Source: Acidiferrobacterales bacterium
Lineage (GTDB): Bacteria > Pseudomonadota > Gammaproteobacteria > Acidiferrobacterales > Sulfurifustaceae
Assembly (NCBI GenBank): GCA_919902925.1
Contig: CAKKRZ010000071.1
Coordinates: 1 to 36,705, forward strand
DNA: 36,705 nucleotides
Reading direction: 5' to 3'
The position numbers and the translations under genes are program-made. The number at the start of each line of letters is the position of its first letter. Positions within the stretch are counted from its first letter, which is position 1. Shown here one piece after another: positions 435 to 21,509 of this stretch. The notes beneath the pieces are model-generated. The model was given only the letters and a program-made list of their open reading frames with translations, was not told where the DNA came from and ran no database searches.

Positions 435-1709
435 ATGGCAGCCCCCCAACAGCGCACCCACCATTACCTCGCCCGTTTGCTGGAACGTTTCGGGATGGAG
501 GAGCTGGCCGAGCGGCTCAGGCCAAAACCCGAGGTGCCGGGCAACGCGATTCCGCGCAATCCCTATCTCACCACCCAGGCGATCGAAGCGCGCTGGAAGC
601 GCATGAATGCCTCTTCCGCCTGTCGCGAAAATCTGCTCGACGCCCAGACCGTCGCCCAGATGAATGTCTACGAACGCAACATCGAGAATTTTATCGGCAC
701 CGTAAAGTTGCCGGTGGGTATCGCCGGCCCGCTGCGCGTGAATGGCCTGCATGCCCAGGGCGACTACCTGGTGCCGCTCGCGACCTCCGAGGCGGCGCTG
801 GTGGCTTCCTACAGCCGCGGCGCCAGCCTGTTGACCAAGGCCGGCGGCTGCACCGCCATGTTGCTCAACGAAGGCGTGACCCGCGCGCCCGGTTTCGCCT
901 TCCGCGACCTGATCGAGGCCGGCCGCTTCGCGGTCTGGGCGACGGAGAATATGGAAGCCTTCCGCGAGGTGGCCGCGTCCACCACCCGGCACGGCCGCCT
1001 GCAGGACATGCGCCTGACCATCGAGGGCAACCATGTCTATCTGGGCTTCGATTACCTGACCGGTGATGCCTCGGGCCAGAACATGGTCACGATCGCCACC
1101 GATGCCGTGTGCCAGCACATCCTCGAGCACACGCCGGTGAAACCGCAGTACTCGTTCGTCGAGGCCAATCTGTCGGGCGACAAGAAGGCGAGCGCCCAGT
1201 CGTTCCTGTCGGTGCGCGGCAAGAAGGTGAGCGCCGAGGTGCGCCTGCCCGGCGAGCTGGTCACGAAAATGCTGCACACCACCTCGCAGCGCATGGTCGA
1301 CTACTGGCGCATGTCGGCCATGGGCGGCGTGCTGAGCGGCACGATCGGCGTGCAGGGGCACTATGCCAACGGACTCGCGGCGCTCTACATCGCCTGCGGC
1401 CAGGACGCCGCCTGCGTGTCGGAGTCGGCGGTGGGCGTGACGCGTTTCGAACTCGGCGACGACGGATCGTTGTACGCCGCGGTCACGATGCCCAACCTGA
1501 TCGTCGGCACGGTCGGCGGCGGCACCGGGCTGCCGAGCCAGCGCGCCTGTCTGGAATTGCTCGGGCTGGCCGGGCCGGGCAACGCCCAGGCGCTGGCCGA
1601 GGTGTGCGCGGCGCTGTCACTGGCCGGCGAGCTGTCCATCATCGGCGCGCTGGCGGCCGGACACTTCACGCGCGCCCATCGCCAACTGGCGCGCGGCACC
1701 AAGGCATGA
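435..1709 (+). CDS. Hydroxymethylglutaryl-CoA reductase (class I-like)
   Basis: 424 aa; ENFIGTVKLPVGIAGPL, ATSEAALVAS (catalytic Glu), SGDKKAS (Lys), GQDAA (Asp), TVGGGTGLPSQ, AAGHFTRAH (His). RBS ggagg upstream. Confidence 0.92.
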   Translation: MAAPQQRTHHYLARLLERFGMEELAERLRPKPEVPGNAIPRNPYLTTQAIEARWKRMNASSACRENLLDAQTVAQMNVYERNIENFIGTVKLPVGIAGPLRVNGLHAQGDYLVPLATSEAALVASYSRGASLLTKAGGCTAMLLNEGVTRAPGFAFRDLIEAGRFAVWATENMEAFREVAASTTRHGRLQDMRLTIEGNHVYLGFDYLTGDASGQNMVTIATDAVCQHILEHTPVKPQYSFVEANLSGDKKASAQSFLSVRGKKVSAEVRLPGELVTKMLHTTSQRMVDYWRMSAMGGVLSGTIGVQGHYANGLAALYIACGQDAACVSESAVGVTRFELGDDGSLYAAVTMPNLIVGTVGGGTGLPSQRACLELLGLAGPGNAQALAEVCAALSLAGELSIIGALAAGHFTRAHRQLARGTKA

Positions 1710-2650
1710 CCACCGCCATGACCAATTTACTGACCGGCAACCGCTGGTGGATCTACCAGCGCGAGCGTTTCCCGCTCGTGGCGCACGGTCCATTGATTTT
1801 CGCTTTCAGCTTCTCGGCGGTAAGTTTCTCGGCGTTGTTGCGTGGTCATGACGGCTGGCCGGCCGGGCCGTCGCTGGCCGTGGCGTTCCTGACCTCGCTG
1901 TTGTTCTTCCTGCAGCTGCGCATCGCCGACGAATTCAAGGATGCCGGCGAGGATGCGAAATACCGTCCCTACCGTCCGGTGCCGCGCGGGCTGGTGCGTC
2001 TGCGCGAACTGGGCGTGATCGGCGTGGCCGGCGCACTGGTGCAACTGATGCTGGCGTGGTGGCTGTACGCGCCGCTGCTGATACTGCTCGCCGTCACCTG
2101 GCTGTACCTGGCGTTGATGAGCCACGAATTTTTTGCGCGCGATTGGCTGAAGGCGCGCCCGGTGACGTATCTGTGGACGCACATGCTGATCATGCCGTTG
2201 ATCGACCTGTACGCCACCGCCTGCGACTGGCTGCTGCAGGGGCAGACGCCGCCGGCGGGATTGCACTGGTTCCTGATCGTGAGCTTCTTCAACGGCATCG
2301 TCATCGAGATCGGCCGCAAGCTGCGCGCGCCCGAGGCCGAGGAGCGCGGTGTCGAGACCTACACCGTGTTGTGGGGACGGGCGCGCGCCGTTACCGCCTG
2401 GTTGGCGGCCCTGACCGTGACCGGTGTGTTCGCGGTGATCGCGGCGCAACGCATCGGCTGGCACTGGCCGATGGCCGCGCTGCTCAGCGTGCCGCTGGGT
2501 TACGCGCTGTGGCTGGGCGTGACGTTCGTGCGTGAGCCGACCACGGTTCGTGGCCAGCGGCTCGAACTGCTGTCCGGTGTCTGGACGCTGGTGTTGTATC
2601 TCGGCCTCGGCGCCGCGCCGATGTTGTGGCGCGCCCTGGCGGGAGGCTGA
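1706..2650 (+). CDS. UbiA-family prenyltransferase (integral membrane)
   Basis: ATGA overlap with HMGR stop; multi-TM; Asp-rich RIADEFKDAGEDAKYRPYRPVPRG and second motif NGIVIEIGRKLRAPEAEERGVETYTVLWG. Confidence 0.85.
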   Translation: MTTAMTNLLTGNRWWIYQRERFPLVAHGPLIFAFSFSAVSFSALLRGHDGWPAGPSLAVAFLTSLLFFLQLRIADEFKDAGEDAKYRPYRPVPRGLVRLRELGVIGVAGALVQLMLAWWLYAPLLILLAVTWLYLALMSHEFFARDWLKARPVTYLWTHMLIMPLIDLYATACDWLLQGQTPPAGLHWFLIVSFFNGIVIEIGRKLRAPEAEERGVETYTVLWGRARAVTAWLAALTVTGVFAVIAAQRIGWHWPMAALLSVPLGYALWLGVTFVREPTTVRGQRLELLSGVWTLVLYLGLGAAPMLWRALAGG

Positions 2651-2651
2651 C

Positions 2652-5312
2652 ATGCGTTATCTCGTCTATTCGGCTGATGACATCACCGGCATCGAACTCG
2701 GCGGCAAGGCCGGGGCCCTGCATGCACTGGCGGCGCACGAACTGCCGGTGCCGCCCTGGTTCGTGATTCGTCCGGAAGCGTTTTGGGCGAGCCTCGATCC
2801 TTCCTTGCGCACGGTGCTGGAAACAGCCGGCCGTGATGTCACCGGCGAGCTGGCTTCGCTGGCGCCGACGGCGGAGGTCGAGGCCGAACTGCGCGCGGCG
2901 CTCCGGCAACTGGCGCCGAACGGCGAACGGCTGGCGGTGCGCTCCTCGGCGGCCGGCGAAGACAGCAGCGGCGAATCGTTTGCCGGCCAGCTGGAGAGCT
3001 GGCTGTTCGTGTCGCCCGGCGACGTGGCGCGACGGGTGGCCGATGTCTGGCGCTCGGGATTCAGCGAGCGCGTGCTGACCTATCGCCGTGAACGCCGGTT
3101 AGGCGGCGCGCCGCCGGCGCCGGCCGTGCTGATCCAGCGCATGGTCAATCCGCAGGCGGCCGGTGTCGCCTTCAGCGCCGATCCGGTCAGCGGCCGGCGC
3201 GGAATCGCCGTGGTCGGCGCCGTCTATGGCGTCGGTTCGGGGCTGGTGTCCGGGGATTGCGACGCCGATACCTATTATGTCGACCGGGCGGGGTCCGTGA
3301 TCGAACGCCGTCTCGTCCGCAAGCTTCATGCCCACCGCCCGGACCCGGCCTCCCCGGATGGGGTCTCGCGCCGCCTGGTCGAGGAGGGGCTGGCCGATGC
3401 GTCGGTGCTCAACGACGAGCAGGTGCGCGCGGTCGCGCGTCTGGCGCGCGACTGTGCCCGGCACTTCGGGCGTCCCCAGGATATCGAATGGGCCATCGCC
3501 GAAGGCCGGCTGGTGCTGCTGCAATCGCGGCCGATCACTTCGCTTGCCGACCTGCCCGATCCGGAGGGCGTGCTCAACCTCTGGGACAACAGCAATATCG
3601 CCGAGAGCTACCGGGGCGTGACCACGCCCATGACGTTCTCGTTCGCGCGCCGTGCCTACGAATCGGTCTACCGCGAATTCTGCCGCCTGCTCCAGGTGCC
3701 GGAACACGCCATCGCCGCGCACGACACGGTGTTCGCCAACATGCTCGGCCTGATTCACGGGCAGGTGTATTACAACCTGCTCAACTGGTATCGCGTGCTC
3801 ATGCTGTTGCCCGGCTACCAGATGAACCGCCACTTCATGGAACAGATGATGGGCGTGCGCGAAGCGCTGCCCGACGAGCTGCTCGCGACCCAGGCGCCGG
3901 TCACGTGGCTCGATCGCGGGCGCGACGGCCTGCGTCTGTTGCGCACCGTGGGCGGCCTGATCGCGAGCCACTGGCGCCTGCCGCGCCAGATCCGCCGGTT
4001 TCACGCGCGGCTCGACGTCGCCCTGGGCGATCCGCAGCCCGCGCTCGCCGATCAGCGGCCCGATGAGCTGGCCGGGTATTACCGCGAGCTCGAACGCCAG
4101 TTGCTGACCCGCTGGGATGCGCCGCTGGTCAACGACTTCTTCGCCATGATCCATTACGGCGTGTTGCGCCGGCTCTGCCAGAAATGGTGCGGCGACGCCG
4201 ATGGCACCCTGCAGAACGACCTGCTGTGCGCCGAGGGCGGCATGATCAGCGCCGAACCGGCGCGCCGGATCCGCGCGCTGGCGGAGATCGCCGCGCGTGA
4301 CCCCGCGCTCGTGCGGGTGCTGACCGGGGGCGCGGTGCGCGAGATCGAACCGGCCCTGAACACCAACCCGGCGCTCGCCGCTGGCGTGCGCGGCTATCTC
4401 GACCGCTTCGGCGACCGTTGTCTGGAGGAGCTCAAGCTCGAAAGCGCCACGCTCGAGGACGACCCCCTGCCGTTCTACCGCTCGATCGGCCATTTCGCCG
4501 AGCGCCTGCAGCGCCAACCCGTGCCGGACGGGGAAGGGCAGGAGCGCGAGCGGCGCCGGGCGGCGGAGACGCGCGTGACGGAGGCCCTCAGCGGCCATTC
4601 CGTGCGGCGCGTGTTTTTCCGCTGGGTGCTGAAACATTGCCGCGCGCGTGTGCGCGATCGCGAAAACCTGCGCTTCGAACGCACGCGCCTGTTTGGCCGC
4701 GTGCGCCGCGTGCTGGTCGAGCTCGGCCGGCGTCTGCACGCGCTCGATCGGCTCGCCCACCCGCGCGACATTTTTTATCTGGAACTCGATGAGGTGCTGG
4801 CGTTCGTGGACGGCACCGCCAGCACCACCAACCTGATGGCGCTGGTGGCGCTGCGCGAGGCCGAGTTCAGCGGTTATCGCGACGCCGATCCGCTGCCGGG
4901 GCGTTTCGAGACGCGCGGCCCGGTCGGCCACGGTCAGGCCTTCCGCTCCACGGTGGCGGAGACTATTCCAACGGGCGACAGCCTGTCCGGCACCGGCTGC
5001 TGTCCCGGCGTGGTGCGCGGACCGGTGCGGGTGATCATCGACCCGCGCGGCGCGCAATTGAAGAGCGGTGAAATCCTGGTGGCGGAACGCACCGATCCGG
5101 GCTGGATCATGCTGTTCCCCGCCGCCGCCGGCCTGCTGGTCGAGCACGGCAGCCTGCTGTCGCACTCGGCCATCGTGTCGCGCGAGATGGGGCTGCCGTC
5201 GGTGGTGGGGCTGGCCGGCATCACCCGCTGGCTGAAGGACGGCGACTGGATTGAAATGAACGGCAGTACCGGGCGGGTGACCCGGATTGCGCCCCCGGGA
5301 GAAACGACATGA
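2652..5312 (+). CDS. PEP synthase / rifampin-phosphotransferase-like dikinase (ATP-grasp + middle domain + phospho-His domain)
   Basis: N-term GGKAGALHAL...PPWFVIRPEAF and RSSAAGEDSSGESFAGQ; AVLIQRMVNPQAAGVAFSADP; C-term GCCPGVVRGPVRVI...GSLLSHSAIVSREMGLPSVVG (His swivel domain), protein ends shortly after. Confidence 0.88.
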   Translation: MRYLVYSADDITGIELGGKAGALHALAAHELPVPPWFVIRPEAFWASLDPSLRTVLETAGRDVTGELASLAPTAEVEAELRAALRQLAPNGERLAVRSSAAGEDSSGESFAGQLESWLFVSPGDVARRVADVWRSGFSERVLTYRRERRLGGAPPAPAVLIQRMVNPQAAGVAFSADPVSGRRGIAVVGAVYGVGSGLVSGDCDADTYYVDRAGSVIERRLVRKLHAHRPDPASPDGVSRRLVEEGLADASVLNDEQVRAVARLARDCARHFGRPQDIEWAIAEGRLVLLQSRPITSLADLPDPEGVLNLWDNSNIAESYRGVTTPMTFSFARRAYESVYREFCRLLQVPEHAIAAHDTVFANMLGLIHGQVYYNLLNWYRVLMLLPGYQMNRHFMEQMMGVREALPDELLATQAPVTWLDRGRDGLRLLRTVGGLIASHWRLPRQIRRFHARLDVALGDPQPALADQRPDELAGYYRELERQLLTRWDAPLVNDFFAMIHYGVLRRLCQKWCGDADGTLQNDLLCAEGGMISAEPARRIRALAEIAARDPALVRVLTGGAVREIEPALNTNPALAAGVRGYLDRFGDRCLEELKLESATLEDDPLPFYRSIGHFAERLQRQPVPDGEGQERERRRAAETRVTEALSGHSVRRVFFRWVLKHCRARVRDRENLRFERTRLFGRVRRVLVELGRRLHALDRLAHPRDIFYLELDEVLAFVDGTASTTNLMALVALREAEFSGYRDADPLPGRFETRGPVGHGQAFRSTVAETIPTGDSLSGTGCCPGVVRGPVRVIIDPRGAQLKSGEILVAERTDPGWIMLFPAAAGLLVEHGSLLSHSAIVSREMGLPSVVGLAGITRWLKDGDWIEMNGSTGRVTRIAPPGETT

Positions 5313-6409
5313 GCACCGAAGTGGCACAACGCGCCGATTTTTCACGCATCCGTTACGCCCAGTGCTGGGAGGATGCCGATATTCTGGTCGAGGCGCTCGA
5401 CCCGAAACCCGGGCAGGTGTGCCTGTCGATCGCCTCGGCCGGCGACAATGCGTTCGCGCTGCTGTCGCGCGCGCCGGCACGCGTGATCGCGCTCGATCTC
5501 AATCCCGCGCAACTCGCCTGCCTGGAACTGCGCGTCGCGGCCTACCGCTCGCTCAAGCATGGCGAGCTGCTGGAACTGATCGGTTCGGTGCCGAGCCTGC
5601 GGCGCGACGGTCTTTACCAGCGCTGCCGCCGGGCGCTGTCAACGGAAGTGCGCGCCTTCTGGGACGCGCACCCGGGCGAGATCGCGCGCGGCATCGGCGG
5701 CGCCGGCAAGTTCGAGCACTACTTCGCGGTGTTTCGCCGTTTCGTGTTGCCGCTTGTGCACACCCGCGCCCGGGTCACCCGGCTGTTGCGCGGTGGCGAA
5801 CACGACGAACGCAACCGTTTCTATCGCGAAACCTGGAACAGCCTGCGCTGGCGGTTGCTGTTCCGGGTGTTTTTCTCGCGCTTCATGATGGGCCGCCTTG
5901 GACGCGACCCGAGTTTCTTCCGCTATGTCGAAGGCAGCGTCGCCACGCGCATCTTTGCGCGCGCCCAGCACGCGCTCACCGAACTCGATCCGGCCGAAAA
6001 TCCCTACCTGCAATGGATCCTGACCGGCCAGCACCAGACGGCGCTGCCGTTCGCGCTGCGCGCCGAGAACTTCGACAAGATCCGCCATCACCTCGACCGG
6101 CTGGAGTGGCGGTTGATGCCGCTCGAGGATTTTCTGGCCGAGGCCGGCCCGCGCGCCATCGATCACTTCAATTTGAGCGACATTTTCGAATACATGTCGC
6201 CCGACAATTACCACGCGCTGCTGGCGCGGCTGGTGACGGCCGGCCGCCCGGGCGGGCGTCTGGCCTACTGGAACATGCTGGCGCCGCGTTCGCGGCCGGA
6301 GTCCATGGCCGGCCAGCTGCGTCCGCTCGACGATCTCGCCGCCCGCCTGCACGAGCAGGACAAGGCGTTTTTCTACAGCCGTTTCGTGGTCGAGGAGATC
6401 AGCGCGTGA
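5309..6409 (+). CDS. DUF3419 / BtaA-like S-adenosylmethionine:diacylglycerol 3-amino-3-carboxypropyltransferase family protein
   Basis: ATGA overlap; RYAQCWEDADILVEAL, CLSIASAGDNAFALL, VIALDLNPAQLACLELR, FNLSDIFEYMS, motifs typical of the BtaA family. Confidence 0.85.
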   Translation: MSTEVAQRADFSRIRYAQCWEDADILVEALDPKPGQVCLSIASAGDNAFALLSRAPARVIALDLNPAQLACLELRVAAYRSLKHGELLELIGSVPSLRRDGLYQRCRRALSTEVRAFWDAHPGEIARGIGGAGKFEHYFAVFRRFVLPLVHTRARVTRLLRGGEHDERNRFYRETWNSLRWRLLFRVFFSRFMMGRLGRDPSFFRYVEGSVATRIFARAQHALTELDPAENPYLQWILTGQHQTALPFALRAENFDKIRHHLDRLEWRLMPLEDFLAEAGPRAIDHFNLSDIFEYMSPDNYHALLARLVTAGRPGGRLAYWNMLAPRSRPESMAGQLRPLDDLAARLHEQDKAFFYSRFVVEEISA

Positions 6410-7740
6410 TCCATCCGCTCATCGGCATGGCGCTGGTGCTGGCCGGACTCGGCGGCCTGCTGGCGACCGCCACCATGCTGCGCCAGCGCCAATGGCTGTC
6501 GGCGGAACTCGCCCGCAAGCTGGTGCACATCGGCATGGGCGTGCTGACCCTGTCCTTTCCCTGGCTGTTTCGCGAATCCTGGCCGGTGATCGCGCTGGCG
6601 GCGCTGGCCGTGGCCACGCTGCTGGTGGTGCGGTTGTTGCCATCGTGGCGACAGCGCGTCGGTGGCGCGCTGCACGACGTGGCGCGCCAGTCGCTCGGCG
6701 AAATCTATTTCCCGCTGTCGGTGGCCATCGTGTTTGTATTCGCGCGCGGCGAGCCGATGCTGTTCGTGGTGCCGATCCTGATCCTGACGTTTGCCGATGC
6801 GGTCGCGGCGCTGGTGGGCGTGCGCTACGGCGCGGCGCACTACACGACCCTGGAAGGGCGCAAGAGCACCGAAGGTTCGGTGGCCTTTTTTGTCGTGGCC
6901 TTCCTGAGTGCCCATGTGCCGCTGTTGCTGTTCACCGATGTCGGGCGCGCCGAGAGCCTGTTGATCGGGCTGACGCTGGGGCTGCTGGTCATGTTGCTGG
7001 AGGCGATCGCCTGGCGCGGACTGGACAATCTGTTCATTCCGCTCGGCGGGTTCGTGCTGCTCAAGGCCTATCTGGTCATGGGTGTTGCCGATCTCGCCGC
7101 GCGCCTGGGCGTCACCGTGGCGCTGGTGGTGTTCGTGCTCGGCTGGCGCGGCCGCACCATCCTGAATGACAGCGCGTTGCTGGCGGCGGCGCTCGCCGGT
7201 TATGCCAGTTGGGCGCTGGGCGGCTGGCAGTGGCTGGCGATGCCGATGGCCCTGTTCATCGTATACCTCCTGTTGCTCACGCCGCGCCGGGTGTTCGGCG
7301 CGGAGCGCGTGCATGACGTGCGCGCGGTGGTCAGCGCCACGCTCCCGGGGCTGACTTGGCTGTTTCTCGCCGGTAGCCCGGTGCTCACAGATTATTTTTA
7401 TCTCGCCACCTTGGCCTATGCCGCTTTCCTCGGCATGTCGACCCTGGCCTGGGCCGAGCAGCGTTTCCCGGGCACGCCCGCGCCGCTCAGGATGGCGGGG
7501 GCATCGCTGGCCGGCGGCCTGCTGCTTCCGCTGTACTGGGAGATCGACGGACCGTCCGTGGCGGGCGCATGGCTGGTGTTGTCGGGTATCGGCCTGACGG
7601 CGCTGGCGGTGGTGGTGTTCCGCGCGTGGCAACCGGCGGTGCACGATTGTCCGGGCGATAGCGCGCGCTGGTGGCGGCAGGGCGGTATCGCGTTTCTGGT
7701 CTCGACGGCGGGCGTGATCCCGCTCGCCTGGGTGAAGTAG
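6406..7740 (+). CDS. Dolichol kinase / phosphatidate cytidylyltransferase-like membrane protein with additional C-terminal TM region
   Basis: GTGA overlap with upstream stop; ELARKLVHIGMGVLTL, FADAVAALVGVRYG, GRKSTEGSVAFFVVAF motifs of the CTP-transferase/polyprenol kinase superfamily. Confidence 0.78.
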   Translation: MIHPLIGMALVLAGLGGLLATATMLRQRQWLSAELARKLVHIGMGVLTLSFPWLFRESWPVIALAALAVATLLVVRLLPSWRQRVGGALHDVARQSLGEIYFPLSVAIVFVFARGEPMLFVVPILILTFADAVAALVGVRYGAAHYTTLEGRKSTEGSVAFFVVAFLSAHVPLLLFTDVGRAESLLIGLTLGLLVMLLEAIAWRGLDNLFIPLGGFVLLKAYLVMGVADLAARLGVTVALVVFVLGWRGRTILNDSALLAAALAGYASWALGGWQWLAMPMALFIVYLLLLTPRRVFGAERVHDVRAVVSATLPGLTWLFLAGSPVLTDYFYLATLAYAAFLGMSTLAWAEQRFPGTPAPLRMAGASLAGGLLLPLYWEIDGPSVAGAWLVLSGIGLTALAVVVFRAWQPAVHDCPGDSARWWRQGGIAFLVSTAGVIPLAWVK

Positions 7741-7769
7741 ACGAGTTACGGCCATGTCCAATCGCTTGC

Positions 7770-7949
7770 GGGCCACATATGTGCTTGGGAATGAATTTCG
7801 CGATCAACGAGGCCATGACCGTGCTGGCGCGCTGTCTGGCCCACATCCGTGTCGAGCCCGTGGCGGGCGCCGCGCCGGTGGTGCCGCTCGCGGGCGTGAC
7901 CCTGCGACCGCGCGATGGCTTGCCCTTGCGTTTCCACTGGCGTGACTGA
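7770..7949 (+). pseudogene. Cytochrome P450 C-terminal remnant (heme-binding loop to C-terminus)
   Basis: In-frame translation GPHMCLGMNFAINEAMTVLARCLAHIRVEPVAGAAPVVPLAGVTLRPRDGLPLRFHWRD* contains the Cys heme-ligand loop (GxHxCxG) and P450-like C-terminal beta-region; no room for the rest of a P450 between 7740 and 7770. Confidence 0.75.
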
Positions 7950-7969
7950 GGCGGAACGGACAACCTGAT

Positions 7970-8977
7970 ATGCACCGGTTTCAATCCCTGCAACACGCGG
8001 ATGACTGGCAGCCGTACCGGGATTCGGTTTTATTGCGCGATGTCGATCCCGCGGCGCTGCTCCGTCAGCGGCCGGATGAATCCTGGCTGGCGCTGGACGC
8101 GCGCGGCGCGCCGGCGGCGCGTGCGTCGCTGTGGTGGAGCGAGGCACCGGCGCTCGCCGGCGAGCGCCTGGGCGCGATCGGGCACTACGGGGCGGTGGAT
8201 GCGGAGTCCGCGGCCGCGCTCCTGCATCACCTGAGCGCGCGCCTGCGCGCGCGCCAGTGCACACTCGCCGTCGGCCCGATGGATGGCAACACTTGGCGTC
8301 GCTACCGCTTCGTCACCGAGCGCGGTCATGCCCCGCCGTTTTTTCTGGAGCCCGAAAACCCGGCCGAATACCCGCAACACTTCCGGGACGCCGGTTTTCA
8401 GGTGCTGGCGAGTTACTATTCCTCGGTCAACGAGGATCTGGCGGTCGAAGACGGGCGCGTCGGGCGCGCCCGCGAGCGCCTCGGCGCGCAGGGCATCACG
8501 CTGCGTTCGTTGCGACCGGATGATTTCGAGAATGAGCTTGACCGGTTGTACGACCTGTCGGTCGTGGCGTTCCGGGACAACTATCTCTATACGCCGATTT
8601 CGCGCGAGGAATTCGTGGCCCAGTATCGGCAGGTCAAACCGTTGCTGGTACCCGGCCTGGTGTGTCTGGCCGAGGCCGACGGCGAGACGGTCGGTTACGG
8701 TTTTTGCCTGCCGGATATTTCGCAGCAGCAGCGCGGCGAGCCGGTCGATACCGCCATCGTCAAGACGGTCGCGGTGCTGCCGGGCCGCCGTCAGGCCGGG
8801 CTCGGCGCCTGGCTGGTGGCGGACGTGCAGCAGCGCGCCCGCGCGCTTGGTTTCCGGCGCGCGATTCACGCGCTCATGCACGAATCCAACCGCTCGCGCA
8901 ACATCAGCCGGCACACGGCGCAGAGCATGCGCGGCTATAGCCTGTTCGCGAAACGGCTGGCGCGGGAGGAAACGTGA
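7970..8977 (+). CDS. GNAT-family N-acetyltransferase
   Basis: 335 aa; VKTVAVLPGRRQAGLGAWLVADVQQRARALGFRRAIHALMHESNRS acetyl-CoA binding region. Confidence 0.75.
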   Translation: MHRFQSLQHADDWQPYRDSVLLRDVDPAALLRQRPDESWLALDARGAPAARASLWWSEAPALAGERLGAIGHYGAVDAESAAALLHHLSARLRARQCTLAVGPMDGNTWRRYRFVTERGHAPPFFLEPENPAEYPQHFRDAGFQVLASYYSSVNEDLAVEDGRVGRARERLGAQGITLRSLRPDDFENELDRLYDLSVVAFRDNYLYTPISREEFVAQYRQVKPLLVPGLVCLAEADGETVGYGFCLPDISQQQRGEPVDTAIVKTVAVLPGRRQAGLGAWLVADVQQRARALGFRRAIHALMHESNRSRNISRHTAQSMRGYSLFAKRLAREET

Positions 8978-10563
8978 ATCTCGTCACGCTCTTGCAGCAG
9001 CAGGCACGGACTCGGCCGGACGCGGCGGCCCTGATCGAAGGCCGCGGACGGGCGCGTCGCGTCACCACCTTCGCGGATCTGGAGCGTCGTTCGCAAAACG
9101 CCGCCGCGCGTCTGCGCGCGGCCGGCCTGCGACCCGGACAACCGGTGCTGATCTTCCAGCCGATGTCGGCCGGGCTGTACGTGGCCCTGGTCGCGGTCTT
9201 TCGCCTCGGGGCCGTGGCCATGTTTCTCGATCCCTCCGCGGGGCGCGCGCATCTGGCGCGTTGTTGTACATTGTCCCCGCCGGTCGCGTTGCTGGCCAGC
9301 CCGCGCGCGTTATGGCTGCGCCTGATCTCGCCGTCCCTGCGACGCATCCCGCGACATTTTCGTCTCGGCGGGTGGGCGCCTTGGGCGCCACCGCTGGAGA
9401 TAAGTATTCCTTCCGTCGCGCAGACGATTGTAGATGTCGATTCGTCGGCGCCGGCCCTGTTGACGTTCACCAGCGGCAGCACCGGCGAGCCCAAGGCGGC
9501 GATGCGCAGCCACGGTTTTCTCATTGCCCAATACCAGGCGCTGGCGGAGAGTCTGGCGCTGGCTCCCGGACAGATCGATCTCGCCACGTTGCCGATCTTT
9601 GTGCTGGCCAACCTGGCGGCTGGAGTCACCAGCGTCATCCCGGCCGCCGATCTCCGCCGCCCCGGCGCGATCAAGGCAGAACCGGTGGTCGAACAACTGC
9701 GCGCCGAAGGCGCCACGCGCTCGGCGGCCTCGCCGGCATTCTATGAGCGGCTGTTGGCCGAGGTTGGCGACGAGCCGCGCGCGCTGGCGCCGTTATCCGG
9801 TATCTACACGGGCGGCGCGCCGGTTTTTCCGCGCTTGCTGGAGCGCCTGTCCGTTTCGGTGGCGTCGGGTGGCCGGGCGGTGGCGGTGTACGGTTCAACC
9901 GAGGCCGAGCCCATCGCCCACATCGCCTGGGACGAGATATCGCCGGCGGATCGCGAGGCCATGCGCGCGGGCAAGGGGTTGCTGGCCGGTCCTCCGGTGC
10001 CGCAGATTGAACTGCGCATCGTGCCGGATCGTTGGGGGACGGTGCTCGGTCCCTGGAGCGGCGCGGAGTTCGCCCACCAGTGGCTGCCGGCCGGCGTCGG
10101 CGGCGAGATCGTGGTCAGCGGCGATCATGTGCTGCCGGGCTATCTCGGCGGTCGCGGCGACGCGGAAACAAAATTCTCCGTCGACGATCGTCGCTGGCAT
10201 CGCACCGGCGACGCGGGCTGGCTCGATGCCCAGGGACGGTTGTGGCTGCTCGGCCGCTGCGCGGCGCGCATCGAAGACCGGCGCGGCGTGCTCTATCCGT
10301 TTGCGGCCGAGTGCGCTGCTCAGGAAGTGCACGGTGTGCGGCGGGCGGCGCTGTTGGCGGTTGGGAAAGAACGCTGGCTCGCCATCGAAGCGGTTCCAGG
10401 CGGCCAACCCGATCCATCCGCCCTGGCGTCGATCACGCAGGCCAGCGATATCGACAGGACCGTGGTGGTGAGAGCAATCCCCGTCGATGCCCGGCATAAT
10501 GCCAAGGTCGATTATCCCGCGCTGCGCCGACTGCTGGGCGGCCGACGGCCGGAGCGGAAGTAA
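8974..10563 (+). CDS. AMP-dependent synthetase/ligase (acyl-CoA synthetase superfamily, OleC-like features)
   Basis: GTGA overlap; LLTFTSGSTGEPKAA P-loop, VYGSTEAEPIAH, HRTGDAGWLDAQGRLWLLGR, C-terminal HNAKVDY (catalytic Lys). Confidence 0.88.
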   Translation: MNLVTLLQQQARTRPDAAALIEGRGRARRVTTFADLERRSQNAAARLRAAGLRPGQPVLIFQPMSAGLYVALVAVFRLGAVAMFLDPSAGRAHLARCCTLSPPVALLASPRALWLRLISPSLRRIPRHFRLGGWAPWAPPLEISIPSVAQTIVDVDSSAPALLTFTSGSTGEPKAAMRSHGFLIAQYQALAESLALAPGQIDLATLPIFVLANLAAGVTSVIPAADLRRPGAIKAEPVVEQLRAEGATRSAASPAFYERLLAEVGDEPRALAPLSGIYTGGAPVFPRLLERLSVSVASGGRAVAVYGSTEAEPIAHIAWDEISPADREAMRAGKGLLAGPPVPQIELRIVPDRWGTVLGPWSGAEFAHQWLPAGVGGEIVVSGDHVLPGYLGGRGDAETKFSVDDRRWHRTGDAGWLDAQGRLWLLGRCAARIEDRRGVLYPFAAECAAQEVHGVRRAALLAVGKERWLAIEAVPGGQPDPSALASITQASDIDRTVVVRAIPVDARHNAKVDYPALRRLLGGRRPERK

Positions 10564-10588
10564 TCCGGATTTTCAAGGAGCAACACAG

Positions 10589-11863
10589 ATGATCAGCCGA
10601 CGCAAGTTTCTGTGGTTAACCGCTGGCACCGCCGCCGGTGCGGCCGCCTGGTATTACTGGCCGGACGAGGGCTTCTGGAATCCGTGCCCGTCGGCGACGT
10701 TGCCGCGCCCGCTGGCCGAGCACGAGGTCATGCGCGCGGCCTGGGACGGCATCGATCCGTTGCAGGTCTGGGACGGGCACGTGCATCTGGCCGGTACCGG
10801 CGACAGCGGCAGCGGCATGTGGGCGTCGCCGAAGATGGATACGCTGCGCCATCCGTTGCAATGGTTGCAGAAGAAGTTCTACCTGAACGCCAGTTGTACC
10901 GAGCGGCCCGGCGAGACCGATCGGGATTACGTCGGTCGCCTGCTCGCACTGCTGGAGGATTTTCGGCCCGGCCCCAAGCTGCTGTTGCTGGCCTTCGATT
11001 GGGCGCACGACTCCGCCGGTCTGCGCCGTGAGGACCTGTCGGCCTTCTACGCCCCGAACGAGTACGCCGCGGCGCTGGCGCAGAAACATCCGCAGTTCGA
11101 ATGGATCGCCTCCATCCATCCCTATCGCCCCGACGCGCTCGAGGCGCTGGACAAGGCGGCCGCCGCCGGCGCGCGCGCCGTCAAATGGTTGCCACCGGCC
11201 CAAGGCATGGACCCGGCCTCGCCGAAATGCGACAAGTTCTACGAGGCCATGGCCCGTCACGGCCTGCCGCTGCTGACCCACGCCGGCGCCGAGCAGGCCG
11301 TGGCCGGCGGCGAGACGGCGGGTTACGGCAACCCGCTCAAGCTGCGCCGGCCCATGGATCACGGTGTCACCGTGATCGTGGCGCACTGCGCCTCGCTGGG
11401 CAGTGGCACCGACCTCGACCGGGGACCGGGCGGGCCGTCGGTGTCGAACTTCGAGCTGTTCGCCCGACTCATGGACGAGGCGCGCTATGAGAAGCGTCTC
11501 TACGGCGAAATCTCCGCGGTCACGCAGGTCAACCGGGTCGGTGTGCCACTGCGAACGTTGATCGAGCGCAGTGAATGGCACGCACGGCTGTTGAATGGAT
11601 CGGATTATCCACTGCCGGCGGTGATGCCGCTGTTTTCGCTCCAGCAGCTGACCGCGCAGCGCTACCTCAGCGCCGCCCAGGCAAAGGTGTTGTCGGACAT
11701 CCGCCGCTATAACCCGCTGCTCTTCGATTTCGTGCTCAAGCGCACGTTGCGCGTGGGCCAGAAAGGTTTTGCCAAGGAAGTTTTTCACACCCGGCGCGCG
11801 TTCGATCGCGCCCCGGCCCCGCCGGCCGCGCCCGCGGCCCCATCACCCGTCCGGAGGAAATGA
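10589..11863 (+). CDS. Amidohydrolase-family (TIM-barrel) protein with twin-arginine-like signal
   Basis: MISRRKFLWLTAGTAAGAAA Tat-like signal; metal-site motifs DGHVHL, AVKWLPP, LLTHAGAE, VIVAHCAS, NGSDYPLP; RBS aaggag. Confidence 0.8.
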   Translation: MISRRKFLWLTAGTAAGAAAWYYWPDEGFWNPCPSATLPRPLAEHEVMRAAWDGIDPLQVWDGHVHLAGTGDSGSGMWASPKMDTLRHPLQWLQKKFYLNASCTERPGETDRDYVGRLLALLEDFRPGPKLLLLAFDWAHDSAGLRREDLSAFYAPNEYAAALAQKHPQFEWIASIHPYRPDALEALDKAAAAGARAVKWLPPAQGMDPASPKCDKFYEAMARHGLPLLTHAGAEQAVAGGETAGYGNPLKLRRPMDHGVTVIVAHCASLGSGTDLDRGPGGPSVSNFELFARLMDEARYEKRLYGEISAVTQVNRVGVPLRTLIERSEWHARLLNGSDYPLPAVMPLFSLQQLTAQRYLSAAQAKVLSDIRRYNPLLFDFVLKRTLRVGQKGFAKEVFHTRRAFDRAPAPPAAPAAPSPVRRK

Positions 11864-16123: not shown

Positions 16124-19855
<3,732 letters not shown>

Positions 19856-19904
19856 CCGGCTGCACCACGGTTGATGGCCGCATGCTGTCGGCAAAGGAGG
19901 AGCG

Positions 19905-21509
<1,605 letters not shown>

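Follow-up and report, generated by a model that had tools for sequence, protein, structure and literature searches.

A seven-gene cassette conserved across bacterial phyla as a candidate pathway for an undescribed lipid-like metabolite

The window analysed here, 36,705 nucleotides of contig CAKKRZ010000071.1 from an Acidiferrobacterales bacterium, contains at 435-10563 a seven-gene unit encoding an HMG-CoA-reductase-like enzyme (HMGR), a UbiA-superfamily prenyltransferase, an RPH-like dikinase, a BtaA-like protein, a membrane enzyme termed CTPt, a GNAT N-acyltransferase and an AMP-forming ligase (AMP-ligase). The same cassette recurs across phyla with joint inheritance and conserved gene order. 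We put at about even odds (roughly 0.5) the reading that it constitutes a self-contained, horizontally spread pathway for an amphiphile that bears an N-acylated amino acid group. The sequence-only reading of this DNA proposed, on the strength of UbiA and BtaA, a prenylated or homoserine-headed product, which is a reasonable but unproven suggestion.

Results

Domain calls are Pfam and NCBIfam profile matches on the window ORFs (Table 1). On re-check the ORFs and head-to-tail junctions were as first described: HMGR/UbiA and RPH/BtaA overlap by ATGA, BtaA/CTPt and GNAT/AMP-ligase by GTGA, and UbiA/RPH are separated by a 1-nt gap. The core operon originally drawn at 435-7740 is real, but the conserved unit is longer and takes in GNAT and AMP-ligase.

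Table 1. Features of the cassette and its immediate neighbours in the window
Feature	Position	Strand	Length and supporting match
LplT-like transporter fragment, cut by contig start	2..412	+	NF008397 101.8, partial
HMGR-like (HMG-CoA-reductase-like, class I fold)	435..1709	+	424 aa; PF00368 392.8 bits
UbiA-superfamily membrane prenyltransferase	1706..2650	+	314 aa; PF01040 48.3 bits, cut-off 34.2
RPH/PEP-synthase-like dikinase	2652..5312	+	886 aa; PF01326 and PF00391 only
BtaA-like (DUF3419), presumed SAM:3-amino-3-carboxypropyl transferase	5309..6409	+	366 aa; PF11899 238.2 bits
CTPt, membrane enzyme, phytol/dolichol-kinase-like N-half	6406..7740	+	hhalign
Cytochrome P450 remnant	7741..7949 (ORF 7671-7949)	+	PF00067 positions 406-447 of 462
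Tandem-repeat GNAT N-acyltransferase	7970..8977	+	335 aa; PF00583
AMP-forming acyl ligase, PRK09274/OleC neighbourhood	8974..10563	+	529 aa; PF00501 171 bits
Tat-signal amidohydrolase	10589..11863 (10589 is the better start)	+	PF04909

HMG-CoA reductase is an enzyme of the cholesterol pathway. The cassette enzymes share with class I HMG-CoA reductase the fold, the catalytic Glu/Lys/Asp/His and most residues of the CoA and NADPH sites, but differ in lacking Ser684 and Lys735 (human numbering) and in belonging to hosts without a mevalonate pathway. The window HMGR keeps catalytic E119, K250, D324 and H415, and residue tables show the catalytic set retained in 45 of 45 cassette HMGRs. At the HMG-carboxylate site E243 and S294 replace Ser684 and Lys735; neither residue is kept in any of the 45, the substitute for Ser684 being Glu in 44 and Asp in one, and the canonical control at locus L129 retains both. 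Lys735 forms a salt bridge with the terminal carboxylate of HMG (PMC9500038). The window protein also scores below the TIGR00533 equivalog cut-off (355.9 against 441.8 bits). Of 40 cassette genomes, 39, among them that of the window, have neither HMG-CoA synthase nor diphosphomevalonate decarboxylase (MDD), Dxr of the MEP route is present in 38 of the 40, and a second, canonical HMGR occurs in the single genome where a mevalonate pathway exists. These findings do not support the initial statement that the enzyme makes mevalonate. Host pathways and active-site residues together indicate that the cassette HMGR is not the mevalonate enzyme; it seems to have taken on another function.

UbiA carries a first acidic motif, D74-E75-x-x-D78-x3-D82, conserved in 55 loci, and a second metal-motif region (E-GRK...P--EE-GV-TY) that is acidic but atypical, with Glu replacing Asp. 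The RPH-like dikinase combines an ATP-grasp domain with a swivelling phospho-His domain (H838; conserved SH-AIV-RE motif; nearest solved sequences 5fbs and 5hv1) and has no PEP-binding domain, an architecture shared with rifampin phosphotransferase, PigC-RedH and PEP-synthase-like dikinases. It differs from these in a middle, acceptor region of its own conserved type and in falling below all curated cut-offs (305.9 against 999 bits for the RPH equivalog).

The BtaA-like protein matches DUF3419 (238.2 against 28.2 bits) and shares WEDxD, IxSxGxN and D63 with a BtaA-BtaB-type protein of Rhizobium, 44 cassette-conserved residues being common to the two; its sequence matched none of the PDB sequences at E 1. 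Like the transferase of the BtaA/BtaB (DGTS) pathway it would move 3-amino-3-carboxypropyl from SAM, presumably to a lipid hydroxyl, but it belongs to a distinct subfamily, which plasmid-borne rhizobial DUF3419 proteins match at 24-32% identity.

By homology the N-half of CTPt belongs with the phytol and dolichol kinases, which are CTP-dependent lipid kinases. It aligns at an hhalign probability of 99.6% (E 1e-24) with a cyanobacterial phytol-kinase-like protein, whose own assignment comes from motif, genome and length rather than from an assay, and is homologous to VTE5/SEC59-type kinases over 206 positions, with RKxxH, D-AAxxG and KSxEGS-type motifs in common. Unlike those kinases, CTPt has an additional membrane C-half that is weakly DUF92/VTE6-like (weak DUF92 matches in 8 of 40 members, best 5e-4; hhalign E 0.06 against DUF92/VTE6, catalytic motifs missing). 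A bifunctional VTE5-VTE6 enzyme converting prenol to diphosphate was considered and rejected, the N-half being clear and the C-half unsupported. A fold search of the PDB with the AlphaFold model (pLDDT 92.8) returned nothing below E 0.3. For GNAT (pLDDT 95) the PDB fold matches were generic tandem GNATs only (MAB_4324, VipF, MshD and MprF), with no substrate hint. AMP-ligase conserves the TSGSTGxPK and final K motifs and lies below curated cut-offs (PRK09274 356.3 against 478 bits; OleC 202 against 900).

Neighbouring genes are less constant. The P450 remnant, which comprises the C-terminal heme-loop end only, is probably a decayed tailoring gene; an intact P450 immediately precedes GNAT in L023 and another follows AMP-ligase in L055. 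In L085, a same-family relative, a homologue of the amidohydrolase (63%) is the gene immediately 5' of HMGR, and L048 has a weak relative (36%); the amidohydrolase is a lineage-specific accessory outside the conserved cassette. LplT, considered as part of the system and rejected, is a neighbour only, no homologue having been found in 80 related loci. Flanking genes elsewhere vary by locus and include PLD, an MGDG-synthase-like glycosyltransferase, SelO, AIRS and TatD.

Conservation was assessed in 80 loci retrieved with BtaA. All seven genes occur together in 30 of these and in the window, mostly as overlapping genes, and span 14 NCBI phyla, a count in which the labels of some MAGs may be wrong; Cyanobacteria, Planctomycetes, Verrucomicrobia, Chloroflexi, Deinococcota, Proteobacteria and Bacillota are among them. 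No further conserved gene was found across the related loci. UbiA-based searches gave a less biased sample. The window's order (57 genomes) yielded two new matches, both with all seven genes, and the class (274 genomes) yielded five, namely two complete cassettes, one with six genes (all that its contig can hold), a 3-kb HMGR-UbiA fragment and a variant. The UbiA relatives found in order and class at 48% identity or more all lay inside a cassette. Protein distances correlate in all 21 pairs (r 0.57-0.86, p 0.001), phyla are intermixed in the BtaA tree, and a Roseinatronobacter plasmid carries all seven genes; many unrelated bacteria thus appear to share the cassette by horizontal transfer. With conservation spanning phyla, the arrangement cannot be due to chance. 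The test that the first reading set for its own refutation, core genes kept together only in close relatives, did not refute it, the set being conserved in 14 phyla. The first view that the genes form one biosynthetic unit, probably lipid-directed, is supported.

Among 25 genomes whose loci are incomplete, UbiA and BtaA co-occur at genome level in 22, and cyanobacteria with dispersed genes still have HMGR, UbiA and GNAT in the genome. HMGR is absent from 20 of the 25 reduced-locus genomes; CTPt occurs in several of these and is therefore not strictly dependent on HMGR.

Variant loci offer hints to function. A formyltransferase replaces GNAT at L046, L057 and L162, and genome-wide search of the first two found no GNAT; the interchange of the two enzymes is seen at these three loci. 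Kinase genes are adjacent to or fused with HMGR. In L162 an HMGR-APH kinase fusion is followed by a fusion of two CDP-lipid enzymes, PssA/archaetidylserine-synthase-like and CarS-like, and BtaA, absent here, is therefore not universal. In L019, where the locus has no CTPt, a DAGK gene follows HMGR; an apparent HMGR-DAGK fusion was an artefact of ambiguous frame-breaking bases. L162 joins UbiA to relatives of the archaeal-type phospholipid enzymes (UbiA-type DGGGP synthase, CarS, archaetidylserine synthase), but the likeness is confined to this variant, falls below curated cut-offs and comes with no geranylgeranylglyceryl-phosphate synthase seen.

Discussion

Our results suggest a model in which AMP-ligase would turn a carboxylic acid into an activated form, probably a CoA thioester, from which the HMGR-like enzyme would produce a primary alcohol by four-electron reduction; AMP-ligase stands immediately 5' of HMGR in type-B operons, L048 and L019. 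The resulting lipid alcohol would enter membrane-lipid chemistry through phosphorylation, with the CTP-dependent kinase CTPt as the enzyme or, in the variants, DAGK or APH kinases. An alcohol-then-phosphate order is proposed because of the HMGR-APH fusion in L162, the DAGK gene after HMGR in L019 and the homology of CTPt; by analogy with these variants, the HMGR product of the standard cassette may pass to CTPt. UbiA would attach a prenyl chain, the dikinase would activate or phosphorylate an intermediate, and BtaA would install a homoserine-type group from SAM whose amine GNAT may cap. N-capping is proposed because formyltransferase takes the place of GNAT in the three variants. In L162 a serine-type CDP-alcohol transferase could supply the amino-acid group in place of BtaA, with the formyltransferase as cap.

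A different assignment of AMP-ligase and HMGR is possible, though we consider it unlikely. Their target might be the carboxyl of the homoserine group that BtaA installs and GNAT caps, giving an amino alcohol (a homoserinol ether) for phosphorylation by CTPt, the group becoming a glycerol- or sphingoid-like phospholipid backbone. Capping nitrogen before activating a carboxyl is chemically sensible, the lost carboxylate site, with an acidic residue in place of Ser684, would accommodate a substrate that lacks a distal carboxylate or carries a cation, and the position of AMP-ligase immediately 5' of HMGR recurs in several independent arrangements. However, the L162 HMGR-kinase fusion ahead of CarS-like and serine-transferase-like enzymes fits an HMGR-made lipid alcohol better, and in L046 and L057 AMP-ligase has diverged and HMGR has not.

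It is improbable that the operon houses two independent pathways, BtaA-GNAT-AMP-ligase and UbiA-RPH(-HMGR-CTPt), as the separation of BtaA-GNAT-AMP-ligase from UbiA-RPH by about 5-6 kb in L009, L040, L071 and L074 might imply. The full set co-occurs, the distances of all protein pairs correlate, UbiA accompanies BtaA in most incomplete-locus genomes, and AMP-ligase diverges jointly with UbiA and RPH in L046, L057 and L162. Still less probable is a DGTS-like, phosphorus-free membrane lipid built from diacylglycerol. The DUF3419 homology and shared SAM-site residues favour it, but no methyltransferase equivalent to BtaB was found in the conserved cassette, unlike the Rhizobium locus; an N-acyltransferase stands where N-methylation would be needed, the amine is probably acylated, not methylated, and of the six other enzymes UbiA, RPH, AMP-ligase, HMGR and CTPt would be left unexplained. 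That HMGR-derived mevalonate feeds prenyl diphosphates to UbiA, as the PF00368 match and intact catalytic residues might suggest, is largely refuted by the missing HMG-CoA synthase and MDD, the prevalence of Dxr, the replaced carboxylate-site residues and the separate canonical HMGR of the one mevalonate-pathway genome.

No description of the cassette or its gene combination was found in a search of open-access journal papers, in keeping with the earlier remark that no named pathway has this combination. The pathway is apparently undescribed, with each enzyme drawn from a known superfamily. The fullest version of the proposal is more tentative than the N-acylated amphiphile alone: a novel bacterial class of lipids or lipid-like metabolites, spread to at least 14 phyla by transfer of a compact cassette. 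Here the HMGR relative would be a dedicated reductase for an acyl-CoA other than HMG-CoA, and an unprecedented combination of UbiA, dikinase, BtaA and CTP-kinase chemistry would use the alcohol to make a prenylated lipid with an N-acetyl- (or N-formyl-) amino acid as its head.

The cassette contains no terpene synthase, PKS or NRPS genes, and cluster finders that seek these would therefore probably miss it. Among the culturable carriers, in which the model is open to direct test, are Desulfobulbus rhabdoformis DSM 8777, Alkalilimnicola ehrlichii AK92 and Roseinatronobacter sp. S2. The cassette would add a bacterial lipid or metabolite class, and DUF3419/BtaA proteins would, if the model is true, gain a role outside betaine lipids. 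The HMG-CoA reductase family would likewise have a second physiological reaction, in which case a mevalonate-synthesis annotation should not be given to 'HMGR' where the bacterium uses the MEP pathway.

A seven-gene functional unit

The window takes in the whole 36.7 kb contig, from a genome that is 88% complete (2.2 Mb, 200 contigs). Re-checking bore out every ORF, overlap and family assignment of the sequence-only reading, although the extent then proposed, 435–7740, falls short of the full unit at 435–10563, which takes in GNAT and the AMP-ligase. As an intact P450 occupies the site equivalent to the window's remnant in locus L023, and follows the AMP-ligase in L055, a tailoring enzyme seems, from gene content, to have been lost from the window's cassette. 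Two large ORFs at 16124–21509, by eye like 2-hydroxyacyl-CoA dehydratase activator/component proteins (BcrA/BadF-like ATPase start), are unrelated to the cassette.

Cassette genes of the window and the variant operon L162
Feature	Position	Remark
HMGR-like	435-1709	
UbiA	1706-2650	
RPH-like dikinase	2652-5312	
BtaA-like	5309-6409	
CTPt	6406-7740	
P450 C-terminal remnant	7741-7949	directly 5' of GNAT
GNAT	7970-8977	
AMP-ligase (AMPl)	8974-10563	
L162 operon	L162:1716-12415	HMGR-APH kinase fusion, CDP-alcohol transferase + CarS-like fusion, formyltransferase, hydrolase-AMP-ligase fusion, UbiA, RPH

With BtaA as query, a search of 84,980 species genomes yielded no fewer than 130 relatives. The analysis covered the top 80 loci, which show 55–70% identity and come from 17 named NCBI phyla. 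All seven genes are intact at 30 of the 80 and in the window, across 14 phyla as labelled in the record titles. Clustering of all ORFs gives seven families present in 40–73 loci each, the next reaching at most five. Neighbouring cassette genes overlap or abut at most loci, in two circularly permuted orders, HMGR-UbiA-RPH-BtaA-CTPt-GNAT-AMPl and GNAT-AMPl-HMGR-UbiA-RPH-BtaA-CTPt.

To remove selection bias, UbiA replaced BtaA as query in the window's order and class. It occurs in three of 57 genomes of the order, both new ones carrying all seven genes, and in six of 274 of the class, with five new matches: L160 and L161 (seven of seven genes), L163 (six, on an 8 kb contig, apparently the same record as L016), L164 (HMGR-UbiA on a 3 kb contig) and the variant L162. 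UbiA is likewise found in 22 of 25 genomes with an incomplete BtaA locus, and four cyanobacteria with a solitary BtaA have HMGR, UbiA and GNAT matches elsewhere (one GNAT match is a contig-end fragment). Given these UbiA-based searches and the persistence of dispersed genes, the set is a functional unit with patchy distribution. HMGR and CTPt are optional, HMGR being absent from heterocystous cyanobacteria, some Verrucomicrobia and some Chloroflexi. In filamentous cyanobacteria without HMGR (L025:3257-5957; L065, L066, L076), UbiA is immediately preceded by a radical SAM/SPASM gene together with two genes that match no Pfam family.

Several results point to transfer of the cassette. Pairwise distances are correlated for all 21 protein pairs (r 0.57–0.86, permutation p 0.001). 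With 17 phyla as labels, the BtaA tree requires 29 changes, and some of its well-supported clades mix Geobacteraceae with Nitrospirae and Desulfobulbus with a planctomycete. A 137 kb Roseinatronobacter plasmid bears all seven genes in diverged form (34–52% identity). Mis-binning of MAG contigs could account for individual cases of phylum mixing but not for the isolates Brevibacillus, Alkalilimnicola, Desulfobulbus and Roseinatronobacter.

The HMGR-like enzyme

The earlier assumption that this HMGR makes mevalonate is contradicted by both host pathways and active site. HMG-CoA synthase (HMGS) and MDD were each not found in 39 of the 40 cassette genomes searched, and Dxr is present in 38. Across 45 aligned cassette HMGRs (human numbering), Glu559, Arg590, Lys691, Lys692 and His866 are invariant and Asp690 and Asp767 are kept in 44. 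Lys735, which salt-bridges the terminal carboxylate of HMG (PMC9500038), is replaced in all 45 (Ser in 34, otherwise Gly, Ala, Thr or Cys), as is Ser684 (Glu in 44, Asp in one). Only G030 encodes both HMGS and MDD, and it carries two HMGRs. The cassette copy has Glu and Ser at the two positions; as the second copy, L129, which lies apart, retains Ser684 and Lys735, this exception is consistent with the rule. Judged by these pathways and residues, the cassette HMGR is not the mevalonate enzyme, and we infer that it reduces a non-HMG acyl-CoA to an alcohol. Nitrospirae genome G036 (record of L075), in which Dxr had no match, has two cassette-type HMGR genes, L114 and L128, on separate contigs, which suggests two cassettes.

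Pathway and variants

The cassette is not a betaine-lipid operon, since it lacks BtaB, nor is it a mevalonate operon or rifampin resistance. The sequence-only reading knew of no named pathway, and no description of the gene set was found in the full text of open-access papers, an absence that does not prove novelty.

Cassette BtaA shares SAM-site residues, by sequence comparison, with a Rhizobium DUF3419 protein whose gene is followed by a methyltransferase of BtaB kind. DUF3419 proteins also occur in a different context: on a small Deefgea piscis plasmid (L089:5273-7502), IS elements flank one whose neighbours are SpeD (SAM decarboxylase) and an iron-containing redox enzyme. The CTPt N-half has a cyanobacterial phytol-kinase-like protein as homologue (hhalign, 99.6%), and the C-half shows weak similarity to DUF92. 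The RPH-like protein keeps ATP-grasp and swivelling-His domains with a conserved acceptor region of its own type, GNAT has a tandem-GNAT fold, and the AMP-ligase's nearest models are PRK09274/OleC, with scores under their cut-offs. A Verrucomicrobia-specific expansion separates RPH from BtaA in L009 (4634-9914) and L040: it comprises a PigE-like aminotransferase (best match prodigiosin PigE, under the PigE cut-off), a SnoaL-like protein and an additional dikinase of RPH/PigC type.

In our pathway model, in which we infer the placement of every step, the AMP-ligase would act before HMGR-like reduction to a lipid alcohol; UbiA would prenylate, the RPH-like protein would perform a dikinase step, and BtaA, GNAT and CTPt would supply 3-amino-3-carboxypropyl, N-acyl and phosphate, respectively.

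L046 and L057 lack GNAT at the locus and elsewhere in either genome, and each has a small formyltransferase bearing N-H-D residues, found at none of the remaining original loci. Genomes with dispersed loci have GNAT elsewhere. The chance of both formyltransferase loci landing in the three GNAT-less genomes, versus ~71 with GNAT, is p ~0.001. GNAT and the formyltransferase are therefore probably alternative caps for one kind of amine. L162 is a third formyl-type locus. BtaA, CTPt and GNAT are all missing there, and no BtaA lies within ~40 kb. Its CDP-alcohol transferase is of serine type and fused to a CarS-like CTP enzyme, and its HMGR is fused to an APH-type kinase; these predicted functions spell out a series of reduction, phosphorylation, CTP activation, attachment of serine and formylation. 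L019 lacks CTPt at the locus and has a DAGK gene after HMGR. Taken together, these variants suggest that HMGR yields a lipid alcohol, which then passes into phospholipid-like chemistry, and that either BtaA or a CDP-alcohol transferase attaches an amino-acid group whose amine is capped. The L162 sister operon is possibly a separate new phospholipid pathway. What we can claim most generally and most safely is that the cassette forms one mobile pathway and that its HMGR acts on a different substrate.
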